From NCBI GenBank assembly GCA_021789095.1, contig JAJYJX010000074.1:1-11357 (forward strand): a DNA stretch of 11,357 nucleotides, written 5' to 3'. Shown in pieces: positions 4,373-11,357 of this stretch (position 1 is its first letter; every line of letters starts with the position of its first letter). The position numbers and the translations under genes were made by a program. The DNA comes from a bacterium. Lineage in GTDB: Bacteria > JAMCPX01. The notes below the pieces were generated by a model. The model was given only the letters and a program-made list of their open reading frames with translations, ran no database searches and was not told the DNA's origin.

Positions 4373-5907
4373 TTCTTTTTCCTTCCTTTCTTCAAATCAA
4401 CCTTGACAAGGATGATCCTATTGCTGGAAACCTCAACAACCTTGCTAACAGATTTGTAATAGGGATTCTTAAACTGCACTTTATGTTTCCCTGCAGTAAC
4501 CTGGAACCTTTGGGCCGTTGGCGTAAGGCCGACCTTCTTTCCGTCAATATAGACCTCTGCCCAGGGCAAAGCAACGACCCTGACATAACCGATCTTCGGC
4601 AAAACAGGTGCCACATTTGCGGCTGTTGTAGCCGGCAGCACCGCTGTGTGGGACACCGGCTCTGCAGCTTGGGTAAGCAACACCGCTGCGTGATACACTG
4701 GCATTGTGGTCTGGGTAGGGAGTGCTGCTGCGTGGGACGCCGACTCCGTAGTCTGGGACTGGGGCTTTGCTGACTGGGACGGGAATAACGACCAATTCTT
4801 TCTTATAAACTCAGACATGGTTCCGGCAAAAGGGATTTTCATGGGCCCGCGTATACGGGCTGCTGATTCCTTTATAACAGCAAGCGTATTTCCTTTCAGG
4901 AATGCGTATCCGCCCCCTGCGATAATGGCCATGATCGCAACTGCTGTAGCCATCCACACCACCTTCTTCAGGGGCAAGGTCTTGGGAGCTGTTTGCTTTA
5001 CCGTGGTCTTTGCCTCAACAGGGTTAAATCCCTTTTTGTCTTCAAAGAAACTCTTCAGGACCATGGAATAATCTTTCCCTTTGTTCTCTTGCTGTGCCAA
5101 AGAAAGAAGATATGCCCTGGACTGCTGGATAGTAGGCCTATTCCCGGGCTTCATCTTCAGGCATAGGTTAATAAATCTCCTGAGTCTCCAGGGCGCTGTT
5201 TTCTTGAAGTGTTCTGTTTGAGGGGTCCTCTTACCCTTTCTGATGCTCTCCATTAACGTGGATTTGCCGTGCTCGGCAAATGCCCTCTGGCCTGAGAAGA
5301 TCTCGTAGAGTACGCATCCGAATGACCAGATGTCCGATGACGGGTCAGCGGGTTTTCCGTCTGTCTGTTCGGGAGACATATAGGCCGGTGTCCCCATGTA
5401 AAGCCCTGCCCTTGTGAGCCCCTTTCCGCCAAGCTCCTCCTCGATATGGGCGATCCCGAAGTCCGTGAGCTTGACTTTTCCTTCCTTTGAGATGAGGATG
5501 TTCGACGGTTTCAGGTCCCTGTGTACGATCCCCCTCTCGTGTGCGTATTCCAGTGCCCTTGCGATATCGGAGGCTATAATAAGGCCGATGTTCAGGGGCA
5601 GCGGACCGGTACTCTCGAGGATCCTGGAAAGGTCTGCCCCGTCCAAATATTCCATGGCGATATAATAGGAGCCTCCCTTGTGCCAGAACTCTATTACGTT
5701 TACGATGTTCTCATGCTGGAGCCTTGCCACTGCCTTGGCCTCCTGCTCAAAGCGCGCAATGATCTCCTTGTCCTCTTTGAATGCGGACTTGAGCTCCTTA
5801 ATTACAACAAGGCGGTCAAGGGTGGTCTGGCGTGCTTTATAGATTACCGCCATCCCTCCGGAGGCTATCTGTTCCAGGATTTCAAAATTTCCTATGATCG
5901 TGCCCAT
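4369..5907 (-). CDS. Membrane-anchored Ser/Thr protein kinase with C-terminal PEGA domain
   Basis: Hanks-type kinase with a complete catalytic set. Numbered from the start chosen here (512 residues), it shows a glycine loop SGGMAV near 16-21, the ATP lysine K37 in VVIKELK and HRDLKPSN with Asp131 and Asn136. It also has DFG with Asp149 and an activation segment ending in GTPAYMSPEQ. The kinase domain spans about 6-270. One membrane helix follows at about 316-337, then a 14-residue tandem repeat (386-427) and a PEGA domain (about 440-508: VYIDGKKVGLTP, AGKHKVQFKNP). The kinase is therefore cytoplasmic and the PEGA end periplasmic. I chose the ATG at 5907 because AAGGA/AGGG lies just upstream. 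The ATG at 5928 adds seven residues and has no ribosome site. The gene overlaps the end of the DctP-like ORF upstream and the LysM start downstream. Target proteins are unknown. Confidence 0.95.
   Translation of the reverse strand: MGTIIGNFEILEQIASGGMAVIYKARQTTLDRLVVIKELKSAFKEDKEIIARFEQEAKAVARLQHENIVNVIEFWHKGGSYYIAMEYLDGADLSRILESTGPLPLNIGLIIASDIARALEYAHERGIVHRDLKPSNILISKEGKVKLTDFGIAHIEEELGGKGLTRAGLYMGTPAYMSPEQTDGKPADPSSDIWSFGCVLYEIFSGQRAFAEHGKSTLMESIRKGKRTPQTEHFKKTAPWRLRRFINLCLKMKPGNRPTIQQSRAYLLSLAQQENKGKDYSMVLKSFFEDKKGFNPVEAKTTVKQTAPKTLPLKKVVWMATAVAIMAIIAGGGYAFLKGNTLAVIKESAARIRGPMKIPFAGTMSEFIRKNWSLFPSQSAKPQSQTTESASHAAALPTQTTMPVYHAAVLLTQAAEPVSHTAVLPATTAANVAPVLPKIGYVRVVALPWAEVYIDGKKVGLTPTAQRFQVTAGKHKVQFKNPYYKSVSKVVEVSSNRIILVKVDLKKGRKKK
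4634..4759 (-). repeat. 42-base tandem repeat, three copies, inside the kinase gene
   Basis: Three consecutive 42-base units (4634-4675, 4676-4717, 4718-4759), diverged but in register. They encode 14-residue units: ESASHAAALPTQTT, MPVYHAAVLLTQAA and EPVSHTAVLPATTA. They form a Pro/Ala/Thr-rich linker between the membrane helix and the PEGA domain, so they probably act as a spacer through the periplasm. Confidence 0.8.
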
Positions 5908-6454
5908 GTTCCCTTTTTCCTTGCTCATGATTGGTATACGTATAAAAGAACCCTGTATGAATAAATCCGGTCAGAATGTACCCGTGTCTTCTGAATGCGG
6001 CTTCTATTTCATTCCTCAACCCGTCTAAAACACAATCAACCTGGCCGTAGTTATCGAAAACTAACGGCAGTGTTAAAACAGCCAGTTCCGGCACGGCATC
6101 CATAAAACCCTGGGCTGTACATCCGCAGCCCTGGAGTTCTCCAAGGCGCATCTTCTTTACAACATCCACATCCTCTCCCCTTACCCCGCCTGCGTAAATC
6201 TTAAGGTTAACTACGCCGCTTGTTTCCCATGAAAGGGATGGGACAACTGTATCTATTGCATCCTTGATCCATGGTGTATTTGCCGGAGCAAGTGTGCCTA
6301 TATTAATAACTATGGGCCCGAGTTTCTGGAGTTTTTCCACGCTTATGTTGTACTTATTCGAAAGCACGTCAATGATTTTTTCCTTTGTTGCATCCGTGAT
6401 CCCGTATTTGTCTTTCAGCATCTCAACAACGTTCTTTGCCACATCTCCGTCCAT
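5882..6454 (-). CDS. Truncated TRAP-type (DctP-like) solute-binding protein, N-terminal half only
   Basis: From about residue 48 the product resembles the first lobe of DctP-family binding proteins of TRAP transporters. The matching segments are IGTLAPANTPWIKDAID, LKIYAGGVRGEDVDVVKKMR, LGELQGCGCTAQGFMDAVPE and LPLVFDNYGQVDCVLDGLRN, then RRHGYILTGFIHTGFFYTY. Family members have about 320-340 residues and a signal peptide. This one has 190, no signal peptide, an unfamiliar helical leader of about 45 residues, and no second lobe. The family-like sequence stops near 5933, right at the kinase start, and the last 16 residues are read through kinase sequence in another frame. No TRAP membrane subunits are nearby. 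I chose ATG 6454; a GTG at 6466 is possible, and neither has a clear ribosome site. It may be a remnant or a repurposed single lobe. Confidence 0.65.
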   Translation of the reverse strand: MDGDVAKNVVEMLKDKYGITDATKEKIIDVLSNKYNISVEKLQKLGPIVINIGTLAPANTPWIKDAIDTVVPSLSWETSGVVNLKIYAGGVRGEDVDVVKKMRLGELQGCGCTAQGFMDAVPELAVLTLPLVFDNYGQVDCVLDGLRNEIEAAFRRHGYILTGFIHTGFFYTYTNHEQGKREHGHDHRKF

Positions 6455-6475
6455 TATATTGAACACAGTATTTAT

Positions 6476-7262: not shown

Positions 7263-7297
7263 GCGCCCGGTGGGATTTGAACCCACGACCTGCGGAT
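7263..7297 (-). repeat. tRNA 3'-half fragment, left copy of a 35-base direct repeat (possible att site)
   Basis: Read on the minus strand this is the 3' half of a tRNA: the end of the anticodon stem, a variable loop AGGTC, the T arm GTGGG-TTCAAAT-CCCAC and the 3' acceptor strand CGGGCGC. The 5' half (D arm and GCGCCCG strand) is absent, so it is not a functional tRNA gene. It is identical over 35 bases to 9517-9551. The minus-strand bases just before it (CCGAA) could be the rest of an anticodon loop with CCG, which with this acceptor would suggest tRNA-Arg. That identity is tentative. Confidence 0.75.
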
Positions 7298-7352
7298 TCG
7301 GCAAATATGATTTTACATTTTAGACAGTATGTCAGGGATGCATACATTTCCC

Positions 7353-7381
7353 TTGACTAGAATTATATTCCAGATTATAAT
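7353..7381 (+). promoter_or_regulatory. Near-consensus sigma-70 promoter of the tetR gene, apparently leaderless
   Basis: TTGACT (7353-7358), a 17-base spacer, and a perfect TATAAT (7376-7381). The -10 box ends 6 bases before the ATG at 7388, so transcription should start at or within a base of the start codon. No Shine-Dalgarno sequence is present. It is the strongest promoter match in the window. Confidence 0.8.
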
Positions 7382-7385
7382 TCTA
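7358..7385. promoter_or_regulatory. Perfect 10-8-10 palindrome, probable TetR autoregulatory operator
   Basis: TAGAATTATA at 7358-7367 and its exact reverse complement TATAATTCTA at 7376-7385, with an 8-base spacer. It spans the promoter spacer and the whole -10 box immediately before the TetR-family gene. TetR dimers typically bind such palindromes of about 15-30 bases next to their own genes, so repression by blocking polymerase is the likely mode. Binding is inferred from position and symmetry. Confidence 0.7.
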
Positions 7386-7387
7386 AT

Positions 7388-7993
7388 ATGAAAAGAATGC
7401 ATGCACAATCCGGTTTCCGACAAAAAGAAATTATCAAAGCAGCACTGGATTGTTTTACCGAGATGGGATTCAATGAGACCACCATGGCGGATATATGCTT
7501 GCGGTCAAAAGCCAGCAACGGCAGCGTTTACCATCATTTTAAAAGCAAGGAACAGCTCGCTTCCGCCGTTTACCTTGAGGGAATACGTGAATACCAAACA
7601 GGCTTGCTTGGAGATCTCGACAAGGAGCACTATGCAACCCGTGGAATTACCGCAATGATACGGTATCACTTGAATTGGGTTGCCCGGAACCCTGAATGGT
7701 CGCGGTTTCTGTTCCAGAGACGTCACGAATCTTTTTTGGCCGTCACCGAAGAGGCAATAAATGCGTTGAATAAAGATTTTGCCCGAAGAATAGAAAATTG
7801 GTTCGCACGGCACATCAAAGCTGGGTCGATCAGAAAGATCCCGCTGGACATAATGATCGCAGTGATATTGGGACCATGCCAGGAATATGCGCGGCTGTAT
7901 CTGTCCGGGAAAGCACACACAAGAATGGATGAAGCCGTCCGTGAAATATCACGTGCCGCATGGGCCGCCCTTGCCCGTAAAAGAAATATATGA
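7388..7993 (+). CDS. TetR/AcrR-family transcriptional regulator
   Basis: A 201-residue DNA-binding repressor of normal length for the family. The N-terminal domain carries the helix-turn-helix at about 31-51 (TTMADICLRSKASNGSVYHHF), followed by the family hallmark FKSKEQL. The C-terminal ligand-binding and dimer region (about 65-200) is helical, and its ligand is not predictable. The start ATG at 7388 coincides with the expected transcription start of a near-consensus promoter. A second ATG at 7397 is possible but no better placed. A perfect palindrome covers the promoter, suggesting self-repression. It is the first gene of a plus-strand cassette, ending 22 bases before the hotdog-like gene, so it probably also controls that gene and the next. 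Confidence 0.95.
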   Translation: MKRMHAQSGFRQKEIIKAALDCFTEMGFNETTMADICLRSKASNGSVYHHFKSKEQLASAVYLEGIREYQTGLLGDLDKEHYATRGITAMIRYHLNWVARNPEWSRFLFQRRHESFLAVTEEAINALNKDFARRIENWFARHIKAGSIRKIPLDIMIAVILGPCQEYARLYLSGKAHTRMDEAVREISRAAWAALARKRNI

Positions 7994-8015
7994 CCTATCA
8001 TCAAAGGAGACAAGC

Positions 8016-8915
8016 ATGAAGATTGACCTTACGTTCACATTCAAAGAAAGACCTTCGGCTCTCTATACACTGTGGAAAGCTTTCAGGAACCGGAAAAGCA
8101 AGTATGTATCCGGATACCGGATGCCCGAAATTCATGCTAAAAAGGAAGGTCTCAGAATCGACGAAAAACATTTAAATGATTTTTATAAGATATGCGGGAT
8201 TTCCCGTACGTCATCCATATCGCTTCTCTATCCGTTCACTCTTGCTTATCCTTATATGCTGCGGATCTTATGCATGAAGGAGATGCCTTTTTCAATGTTC
8301 AAGGTTTTGAATACGCGCAATAGTATAACCATGTACCGGGATATGAGACCCGGTGAAAAGATCCGGATTGCGTGCAGGAATTCACCCATACGTATAGTCC
8401 CCAAAGGACTCGAAGTTAACATGGTTTCAGAGATCACAGCTGATGGAGAGAAAGTATGGGACATTATAGCAACATATTTTGCCCCCGGAAATTTCAGCGA
8501 AGGCGAAGCGACGTATATTGCCCCACGGCTTGAGCCTGTCCATGATGCGTCCATAACCCATGAATGGTATCTTGCCGCAAAAAACAGATTTAGATTTGCC
8601 CGTGTTTCCGGAGATACCAATGGGCTTCATTATTGGACGACGTATGCGAGGATGCTGGGATTTAAACGGGACTTTGCGCAACCCATCCGGGTTGTGGCAC
8701 ACATTGTTTCCCTCCTGCCCGTATCGGAAACAGGCACACCGCTCACGCTCGATTTCTTTCTTAAAGGTCCGGTATACTATGAAAATACCTTAATTCTTAG
8801 GAATCTGAATAGAGAACATAGGAATAGATTTGATCTCTATTGTAAAGGCAATGATAAACCGTGTATATCCGGGCAATTAAGTCAATTGGACATAAACAGA
8901 GATAACAGCAAATAA
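8016..8915 (+). CDS. Putative MaoC-like (double hotdog) acyl-thioester dehydratase/hydratase
   Basis: A 299-residue protein without signal peptide. The stretch at about 194-216 (FARVSGDTNGLHYWTTYARMLGF) matches the MaoC hydratase signature SGD.NP.H....A...GF, keeping Asp200, Asn202 and His205. The AHG(M) part is replaced by VVAHIV, so activity on enoyl-thioesters is plausible but unproven. The N-terminal half (about 60-170) would be the non-catalytic hotdog of a double-hotdog protein, and YRDMRPGEKI resembles the usual second-strand motif. The start is ATG 8016 with AAAGGAG at 8003-8009. An open reading from 7887 runs through the tetR gene in another frame and is not needed. Its position directly behind a TetR gene fits regulated acyl or lipid metabolism. 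The family call is by motif only. Confidence 0.65.
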   Translation: MKIDLTFTFKERPSALYTLWKAFRNRKSKYVSGYRMPEIHAKKEGLRIDEKHLNDFYKICGISRTSSISLLYPFTLAYPYMLRILCMKEMPFSMFKVLNTRNSITMYRDMRPGEKIRIACRNSPIRIVPKGLEVNMVSEITADGEKVWDIIATYFAPGNFSEGEATYIAPRLEPVHDASITHEWYLAAKNRFRFARVSGDTNGLHYWTTYARMLGFKRDFAQPIRVVAHIVSLLPVSETGTPLTLDFFLKGPVYYENTLILRNLNREHRNRFDLYCKGNDKPCISGQLSQLDINRDNSK

Positions 8916-8969
8916 CGAAGAAGGATGTATCTTTGTCAACCACGAAAAAATTTTAAAGGAGGTTACAAA

Positions 8970-9407
8970 ATGAAAGTAAGCGAAGAGGTATTTAAATCAT
9001 TGCAGGAACATCTCGGATACACTGATGAAGAAATGAAAATGTTCTATCAAAATCCAAGAAATGAAGATGTTATGTCACAGGTCCCTGCTTTAATGAATAA
9101 GACAATCATCGCAGAAGTAGTGGAATCCCACGGATGCAATAGTCAGCATAAAGTCGGCGATAAGCTCTACTTCGATGGTGCCGGCAATCTTATAACCAAA
9201 CTCAATCCAAAGAAAATTTGTATCTATGCCTTGTCTGTGGTGGCGCCATTGATCTTCACTTCAAATGAGCTGTTCTATGCAGGAACTGATCCCAATACGA
9301 TGCGTTTCAAGCGGACAGGCTGTTTTGATGTTGGGGTACGATGCGGCGGATGGGGTCATATTGTTCTGGAATTACGCGTAGAAGAACGCAAGAAAGACAA
9401 GGCCTGA
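8970..9407 (+). CDS. Small conserved protein, TIGR04076-like
   Basis: A 145-residue soluble protein with no signal peptide. From about residue 45 it resembles the TIGR04076 family of small cysteine-containing proteins of unknown function common in anaerobes. Features are VVESHGCNSQHKVGD, YFDGAGNLITK, a central LSVVAPLIF stretch, FKRTGCFDVGVRCGGWGHI and LELRVEER at the end. Cys56, Cys84, Cys118 and Cys125 are candidates for metal or thiol chemistry, but no role is established. The first 40 residues form a charged helical leader (SEEVFKSLQEHLGYTDEEM). The start is ATG 8970, set by a very strong AAAGGAGGT at 8955-8963; the ATG at 8925 is not supported. It is the last gene of the TetR cassette, 54 bases behind the MaoC-like gene and probably cotranscribed. 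Confidence 0.82.
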   Translation: MKVSEEVFKSLQEHLGYTDEEMKMFYQNPRNEDVMSQVPALMNKTIIAEVVESHGCNSQHKVGDKLYFDGAGNLITKLNPKKICIYALSVVAPLIFTSNELFYAGTDPNTMRFKRTGCFDVGVRCGGWGHIVLELRVEERKKDKA

Positions 9408-9516
9408 AAAATATAGACTACAATTATAGAGGAAGCTGTCCCCGGTTTACATAAAATCCTGGACAACAGAAGTGGAATGCCAAGAGTTCCTTCCCCTCTG
9501 AGTCGTTTAAACAAAA

Positions 9517-9551
9517 GCGCCCGGTGGGATTTGAACCCACGACCTGCGGAT
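9517..9551 (-). repeat. tRNA 3'-half fragment, right copy of the 35-base direct repeat (possible att site)
   Basis: Identical to 7263-7297 and in the same orientation: T arm GTGGG-TTCAAAT-CCCAC plus acceptor CGGGCGC on the minus strand, preceded by TCCGCAGGTC. The sequence diverges from the left copy beyond the anticodon stem, and no 5' tRNA half is present. The 225 bases between the TIGR04076-like gene and the lipoprotein gene (9408-9632) hold this fragment and a terminator. I see no further gene there. Confidence 0.75.
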
Positions 9552-9632: not shown

Positions 9633-11042
9633 TTACTGGAGTGGTATGAAACTTATTATGTGGTTGGCCAAAAGGTCATAGCTCGATGCAACCTTGTTGG
9701 TTGACGGCTCCTTGGGCGCTGCAAGCAGCCCCTTGAGATCAACAATTGCCATACAGGACGCTGTCTCATCTACCAGAAGGCCCATGGGCTTGCCGCCTAT
9801 AATAGCGGTAAATGCTGAAAGGCCATGAGGATCACCTACACTCATCCATGATGAAATGGCCGGACAATATGTCCCTACAGTGGTTGGTATCTGGGCTGAT
9901 GTATAAGATGTTACCGTAACACTTCCGCCTGAAGCTGTAGTAGGTAGCGTGGCAGCACCTATGCCGTCTCCAAACTCCTCTTCAAGAAACAGCACGTGAC
10001 TTGATGGCTCGATTACCATACCCGTTGTAAGCCATGTAGTTGGTGAATAAACGCTTTGCAGCGGAATAACGGTGTACGGCGCATCAAAGGTAGAAGTTGA
10101 ATCGTTGAACGTCGCTGCATTCATATTAAGAACCAGTAAAAGCGGCGTCCACTCGTGCCCGAGGGTCAGAATGCCTGTAGCTGCATCAATCGAAGCTGCA
10201 TCTGGTGTAAGCTGAGTAATATATAAGCCTGTGAGCTCCGGCAGGCCGTTTGCAGAGTCTACGGTTGTATCCACCATCCTTTTATTCCAGTGATAGATCT
10301 TGCCGGTGTTGACATCAATGACCCATAGATAGCTATTTGTGTAGCCAGAACCATACTCTGGAGAGTAGATTCTGTTTTTTACAGGATCATAACCGAAATT
10401 TTCCGTTGACAGATCCATAGGTGTCGTTGCAGCCGGATTGGATAAATAGGATTTTAATACTGTTCCTGAATAATTAACAACACGGTATCCGTCGCCTGAT
10501 GATACTATAAATCCATGATCAACAGAATCGATTATGACACCGCAGTTAATACAGCTTCCACCGCTGAAGCTTCCGGTCACGCTGTTCCCAAGATCATACT
10601 CTGTTGCTGTGGGAACGGATCCGCCGGCTATATAGCCCGATACATCAATAACCGCTACTTTTGAAGAGTCGTAACCAATGCATACGACCTTCAGGTTCGC
10701 TGCGTCCGCAGCACAACCGCCTAAACTGAATGATGTGGTTATAGTGATTCTTGACAATGCCATCTCATTCAGTTTTGGTGTGCCGTAAGAAGCTGTTGCA
10801 AAAGAAGAACCACTTTGTGATATCGGAAGAGCCATTACACCAGCAGGAGACGGGACAAAAGCAATTACCAGGCTCCCTGTACTGATCGTTGCAAGCCCTC
10901 CTGCTGTAGTGACAGAAGATGTTGATGGAGGCGCCTGATTGCCTCCTCCTCCACTGCTGCTTCCACAGCCTGCATACACTATGGTTAAGAATAAAACCAC
11001 CGCCAACACTTTGTAAATCTTTTCTTTTTTCCTGCTTACCAT
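9633..11042 (-). CDS. Secreted lipoprotein of unknown function, possibly beta-propeller-like
   Basis: A 469-residue protein with signal peptide and lipobox (VYAGC, Cys26), followed by a Gly/Ser linker (GSSSGGGG) and Thr/Ser-rich sequence. This suggests export and lipid anchoring at the envelope. The body is rich in short beta-strand patterns: KVAVIDVSGYI, YRVVNYSGTVLKSY, FGYDPVKNRIYSPEYG, YLWVIDVNTGKIYHW and MAIVDLKG. These resemble blades of YVTN/NHL-type propellers without a clear repeat consensus. Cysteines in SFSLGGCAAD, VVCIGYD and GGSCINCG may form disulfides. The start ATG 11042 has AAGGAGG about 6 bases upstream. It stands alone, ends in a strong terminator, and converges with the TetR cassette. 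I do not recognise a specific family. Confidence 0.88.
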   Translation of the reverse strand: MVSRKKEKIYKVLAVVLFLTIVYAGCGSSSGGGGNQAPPSTSSVTTAGGLATISTGSLVIAFVPSPAGVMALPISQSGSSFATASYGTPKLNEMALSRITITTSFSLGGCAADAANLKVVCIGYDSSKVAVIDVSGYIAGGSVPTATEYDLGNSVTGSFSGGSCINCGVIIDSVDHGFIVSSGDGYRVVNYSGTVLKSYLSNPAATTPMDLSTENFGYDPVKNRIYSPEYGSGYTNSYLWVIDVNTGKIYHWNKRMVDTTVDSANGLPELTGLYITQLTPDAASIDAATGILTLGHEWTPLLLVLNMNAATFNDSTSTFDAPYTVIPLQSVYSPTTWLTTGMVIEPSSHVLFLEEEFGDGIGAATLPTTASGGSVTVTSYTSAQIPTTVGTYCPAISSWMSVGDPHGLSAFTAIIGGKPMGLLVDETASCMAIVDLKGLLAAPKEPSTNKVASSYDLLANHIISFIPLQ

Positions 11043-11231: not shown

Positions 11232-11269
11232 AAACATAAACATGGTAAACATGAAACATGGGTAAACAT
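11232..11269. repeat. Cluster of five AAACAT hexamers
   Basis: AAACAT occurs at 11232-11237, 11238-11243, 11247-11252, 11254-11259 and 11264-11269, five times in 38 bases. The last copy runs into the 18-base inverted repeat that follows. Together they form a compact structured block upstream of the lipoprotein gene. The remaining 11043-11231 stretch is AT-rich and contains no gene I can support. Confidence 0.6.
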
Positions 11270-11313
11270 AGGGACAACCCCCATATTGCAAAAATTATGG
11301 AGGTTGTCCCTAT
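11268..11313. repeat. 18-base inverted repeat (17/18), strong hairpin, REP/transposon-end-like
   Basis: ATAGGGACAACCCCCATA at 11268-11285 pairs with TATGGAGGTTGTCCCTAT at 11296-11313 with one mismatch, around a 10-base AT-rich loop. The core GGGACA motif recalls palindromes that I remember beside REP-associated tyrosine transposase genes in deltaproteobacterial genomes; that link is from memory only. No T tract follows on either strand. Confidence 0.75.
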
Positions 11314-11357
11314 ATTTGCTTGGTTGATTTATTTTCCTTAACGTATTGCTCAATACC
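11310..11357 (-). CDS. Possible C-terminal end of an ORF cut by the window edge
   Basis: The minus strand entering from the right edge is open for 15 codons (GIEQYVKENKSTKQI) before a TAG located inside the right arm of the 18-base inverted repeat. The charged composition is protein-like, and a transposase gene ending in its own flanking palindrome would be a familiar arrangement. Fifteen codons are far too few to be sure. Confidence 0.22.
   Translation of the reverse strand, partial: GIEQYVKENKSTKQI

Follow-up and report, generated by a model that had tools for sequence, protein, structure and literature searches.

The DNA analysed here, hereafter the window, is one complete contig (C6) of 11,357 nt from a bacterial draft genome (G000) of 2.15 Mb in 203 contigs. 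It carries an exact direct repeat of 35 nt, with both copies in the same orientation, at 7263-7297 and 9517-9551; the spacing is 2254 nt, and the chance expectation for such a 35-nt pair is ~5e-14. Read on the minus strand, each copy comprises the T arm and the 3' acceptor strand of tRNA-Arg(TCG). The intact parent gene of both resides in the same genome, on contig C122. The first-pass annotation had described just such a pair of tRNA-Arg 3' halves bracketing a small cassette, and the pair is there as claimed. The features needed for the argument are these:

7263..7300, minus strand: fragment 1, a tRNA-Arg(TCG) 3' fragment of 38 nt (38/38 identity to the C122 gene)
7388..7993, plus strand: TetR-family regulator, first cassette gene (Pfam TetR_N PF00440, E 6.4e-15)
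8016..8915, plus strand: MaoC-like (hot-dog) protein of 299 aa, second cassette gene, a weak assignment (tblastn)
8970..9407, plus strand: TIGR04076-like small protein, third cassette gene (NCBIfam TIGR04076, E 2e-5, sub-threshold)
9509..9551, minus strand: fragment 2, a tRNA-Arg(TCG) 3' fragment with flank (43/43 identity to the C122 tRNA-Arg(TCG) and its flank)
9633..11042, minus strand: 469-aa lipoprotein-like protein, the proximal-module gene, paralog of a gene on contig C47 that is conserved in the phylum
11260..11357, plus strand: first 98 nt, from a 22-nt hairpin, of a 394-nt segment (95% identity to C67:19774-19871)

Fragment 1 begins inside the anticodon, at position 35 as numbered from the sequence, and reaches the acceptor 3' end; fragment 2 begins just 3' of the anticodon and continues 8 nt into the tRNA's own genomic 3' flank (TTTTGTTT). 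The two have only the tRNA part in common. Each begins close to the anticodon loop and stops at the acceptor end or slightly beyond it; other island ends in the phylum have the same limits. Fragment 1 would then be the distal, and fragment 2 the internal, of two putative attachment-site remnants. CCA is absent from both; this, together with the genomic flank carried by fragment 2, points to an origin at the level of DNA. An RNA-mediated origin, by a reverse transcriptase copying mature tRNA halves, would account for the fact that both fragments are 3' halves, but it founders on these same two features and deserves a weight close to nil. According to ARAGORN the window contains no complete tRNA, and the 35-mer has no matches in viral contigs.

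Between the repeats (7301-9508) lie only the TetR, MaoC-like and TIGR04076-like genes, with neither a recombinase nor transfer genes. The gene content proposed at first pass is confirmed, with the proviso that the MaoC and TIGR04076 assignments are weak. The MaoC-like protein belongs to no Pfam family. In tblastn searches its reading frame has 23.5% identity (E 2e-8) to a MaoC/PaaZ-domain gene, and 21-26% identity to sequences of Actinobacteria and Acinetobacter, one of them annotated as MaoC/PaaZ. The phylum's other 8 genomes, which all belong to one family, contain no homolog, and the homologs found among 386 genomes are remote (~25% identity); an AlphaFold model made without an alignment has a mean pLDDT of 31.6. 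The TIGR04076-like gene scores 25 bits, where the curated cut-off is 33. Cassette GC is 0.433, indistinguishable from that of contig C67 (0.432); composition gives no distinction. An integron cassette array was considered and rejected: the repeats are tRNA-Arg 3' ends, not attC sites, and the window contains no integrase.

The lipoprotein-like gene on the other side of fragment 2 has 72% nucleotide identity to C47:166-1562, and ~67-71% to the genes of relatives. Beyond it, the window runs out inside the 394-nt segment. The final 62 nt of the window are identical to C67, while the last 127 nt of C122 match C67:20031-20157 at 98%; on C67 both matched stretches fall within a single 394-nt segment, at the end of which stands an intact tRNA-Arg(ACG). 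The genome search finds two copies of this segment only, the complete one on C67 and the contig-end halves on C6 and C122. As the contig ends represent the two parts of the sole other copy, in orientations compatible with a join, C6 is most simply taken to run into C122, although a third copy may exist. The intact tRNA-Arg(TCG) thus most likely lies ~290 nt past the right end of the window, across a join that is inferred from the contig ends rather than present in the assembly. The C122 genes upstream of the tRNA are common to four relatives, each with tRNA-Arg(TCG) at that place; C122 is therefore the ancestral tRNA locus. The order of the region would be tRNA-Arg(TCG), integrase relic, one-gene module, fragment 2, TetR cassette, fragment 1 and flank, and the orientation of the two fragments fits a tandem island if the contigs join in this way. 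No genome was found in which these flanks occur without the cassette; the MBL-fold protein that flanks fragment 1, scanned against genome contigs, has one remote relative and yields no empty site.

In relative G005, tRNA-Arg(TCG) and tRNA-Arg(ACG) with their 3' flanks (L105:8080-8367 and L106:1576-1866) share ~290 bp at 88% identity, which resembles the C122/C67 pair of this genome. At 5882-6466 of the window a DctP-type solute-binding gene is truncated to 194 aa and overlaps the start of a kinase gene; its full 405-aa paralog adjoins the tRNA-Arg(ACG) fragment on C67 (L072:2482-3699).

The 394-nt segment appears to end in a short relic resembling the C-terminus of a tyrosine integrase. Its last ~60 nt, adjoining the tRNA, can be aligned to the C-terminal end of a tyrosine integrase encoded on contig C133 (z 6.5 against shuffles), in the pattern KTAIG...stop. 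With other integrases of the phylum the result varies: z is 5.0 and 3.5 with two, and two more give no alignment. The relic amounts to ~16 codons only, with stops upstream, and C67 and C122 have it alike. It is part of the proximal module, not of the TetR cassette. The first-pass annotation had proposed to look for a complete tRNA in the host genome and for an integrase near it. The tRNA is intact, and what adjoins it is this short sequence like a C-terminal tail; in the window and in the examined parts of C67 and C122, tblastn detects neither an integrase gene nor any larger remnant of one.

Other tRNA-Arg loci of the genome independently support integration at this class of gene. On C67, tRNA-Arg(ACG) has a fragment on the same strand 3.3 kb off, with no recombinase in between: a 3.3-kb integrase-less unit. 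The CCG locus seems to be filled here and empty in relative G005, where the intact tRNA-Arg(CCG) adjoins a methyltransferase gene; in the present genome it is the CCG fragment, on C101, that adjoins the homologous methyltransferase gene (85% nucleotide identity over 898 bp), while the intact tRNA-Arg(CCG) is on C154, which the assembly does not join to C101. On C133 (L075:1977-3833), tRNA-Arg(ACG) lies between two tyrosine integrases that point at the tRNA; upstream of one of these integrases are genes for a ParB-like and an excisionase-like protein. Relative G002 has a remnant of the second integrase 5' of tRNA-Arg(TCG) (L094:7979-8071). In relative G003 a tRNA-fMet island has its integrase adjoining the tRNA and a fragment ~7 kb away. 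At L102, L103 and L104, where integrases lie beside tRNA or tmRNA-like ends, a further tyrosine-recombinase-like protein of ~196 aa is encoded as well.

Genome-wide scatter of the fragment, unrelated to gene content boundaries, would have spoken against an attachment-site origin. Instead, the scanned T-loop patterns give four tRNA 3'-half fragments in the genome, all of tRNA-Arg. This census covers what such patterns recognise, and unusual T loops may be missed; the last pattern gave 13 sites without a printed locus, of which only C154:271 and C180:477 were read, through the first pattern. With the parent tRNA in the genome and the same anatomy at the island ends of sister tRNA-Arg loci, the view of the repeats as remnants of integrase attachment holds.

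The fragments at C67, C101 and in several relatives have a conserved distal element end in common, with pairwise z up to ~50. The flanks of window fragments 1 and 2 give z near 0 when compared with the distal ends of elements that carry an integrase in this phylum; as they are unlike those ends, no integrase can be assigned to the insertion of the cassette. The cassette ends may be decayed, or may belong to another element type. Elsewhere in the phylum, nearly identical ends are found at different RNA genes, one end family with several targets: those at L115:3598-3731 (G008) and L103:2183-2320 (G003) abut tRNA-Arg(CCG) and tRNA-fMet fragments, and those at L084:15509-15650 and L104:8960-9111 abut a tRNA-fMet fragment and a tmRNA-like 3' end.

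One way to understand the bracket, and the one preferred here with a probability of roughly 0.77, is as the attachment-site remnants of a decayed tandem island at tRNA-Arg(TCG), built by successive integrations and then stripped of its integrase genes. That is, a first element with a copy of the tRNA 3' end would have been integrated by a tyrosine integrase, with crossover near the anticodon loop; the tRNA would have been rebuilt on one side, the old 3' end staying behind next to the MBL-fold gene as fragment 1; later, a second element would have entered at the rebuilt tRNA, closer to it, leaving fragment 2; finally, the integrase gene of the second element would have been deleted down to the short C-terminal relic. 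The TetR cassette would then be cargo of the older module, whose own recombinase is presumably gone: a CIME-like unit that probably no longer moves, or is at most mobilised by an integrase acting from elsewhere. Successive integration at one tRNA was one of two mechanisms offered at first pass, and it is the better supported, by the integrase-tail relic beside the parental tRNA, the tandem geometry and the presence of two modules.

The other mechanism offered then, movement in trans, has found no positive support and seems unlikely. It supposes a non-autonomous mini-cassette: a 2.2-kb circle with a tRNA-like attP, for which an older tRNA fragment served as target and a gene at another locus, such as one on C133, supplied the integrase. 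The implied circle would match tRNA-Arg(TCG) over 46 nt, more than either fragment does, and integrases adjoining a tRNA-Arg are present in the genome. Moreover, the relic-bearing 394-nt ends are nearly identical at two tRNA-Arg genes, which could mean that an end without an integrase has moved; recombination between the two similar loci would account for it just as well. The cassette and its ends have no second copy in this genome or in relatives, and those ends are unlike the ends of integrase-bearing elements. A broader version of the idea, which must be considered improbable, is a system specific to the phylum, in which tyrosine integrases next to tRNA genes would act in trans on very small integrase-less cassettes, each with a tRNA-Arg 3' end for its attachment site, and the cassettes would pile up at tRNA-Arg genes, much as in an integron but with tRNA ends in place of attC.

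Equally improbable is that the repeats arose with no site-specific recombination at all, through homologous duplication or rearrangement of the tRNA 3' end (copied from C122, for example). Paralogous rearrangement has taken place in the genome, to judge by the truncated DctP gene beside the island and its full paralog beside the C67 fragment. Against this, the two copies are alike in the tRNA part only, both have the boundaries seen at other island ends of the phylum, and the sister loci show integration.

The decayed tandem island has some implications. For a phylum of which nine genomes are considered here, tRNA-Arg is documented as a repeated hotspot of insertion, and the island here is one in which the integrase appears to have decayed to a short tail. 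Such an island explains the origin of recombinase-free cassettes bracketed by tRNA ends without a new mechanism of mobility. Mobility in trans, if it were shown, would make the cassette a non-autonomous unit of very small size that targets a tRNA gene.

Known systems offer several parallels. Tycheposons, described in PMC10872708 as cargo elements of 4-200 kb at tRNA genes with tyrosine recombinases, are similar in placing cargo at a tRNA gene; the cassette differs in having no tyrosine recombinase within it and in falling below that size range. In Dehalococcoides, 3' fragments of a single RNA gene delimit successive islands at ssrA, and 15 islands without integration modules were suggested to be CIMEs (PMC3146451); there, serine recombinases act at the tmRNA with crossover in the T loop (PMC3146451), whereas the integrases of the present genome are tyrosine recombinases at tRNA-Arg and the fragments start near the anticodon loop. 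An additive flexible island of Methylophilaceae has recurring 20-bp tRNA-Lys repeats (PMC10872708), and a tRNA-Met island of Alteromonas is marked by a recurring or duplicated tRNA 3' end (PMC5217437); recurring or duplicated tRNA 3' ends mark the island here as well, but hosts and tRNAs are different and the present island is ~4.4 kb. Tandem accretion and cis-mobilizable elements (CIMEs) are established (Pavlovic 2004 and Bellanger 2011, as summarised in PMC5704250). The cassette resembles a CIME: cargo between target-gene repeats of attL/attR type (35 nt, within 38 and 43 nt of identity to tRNA-Arg(TCG)), no genes for integration or transfer, and a position in tandem with another element. 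It departs from that description in its very small size (2.2 kb), in the putative status of its sites and in that no parental integrative conjugative element has been identified. Set beside these systems, the island in the window is a further case of a known kind of bacterial tRNA island.
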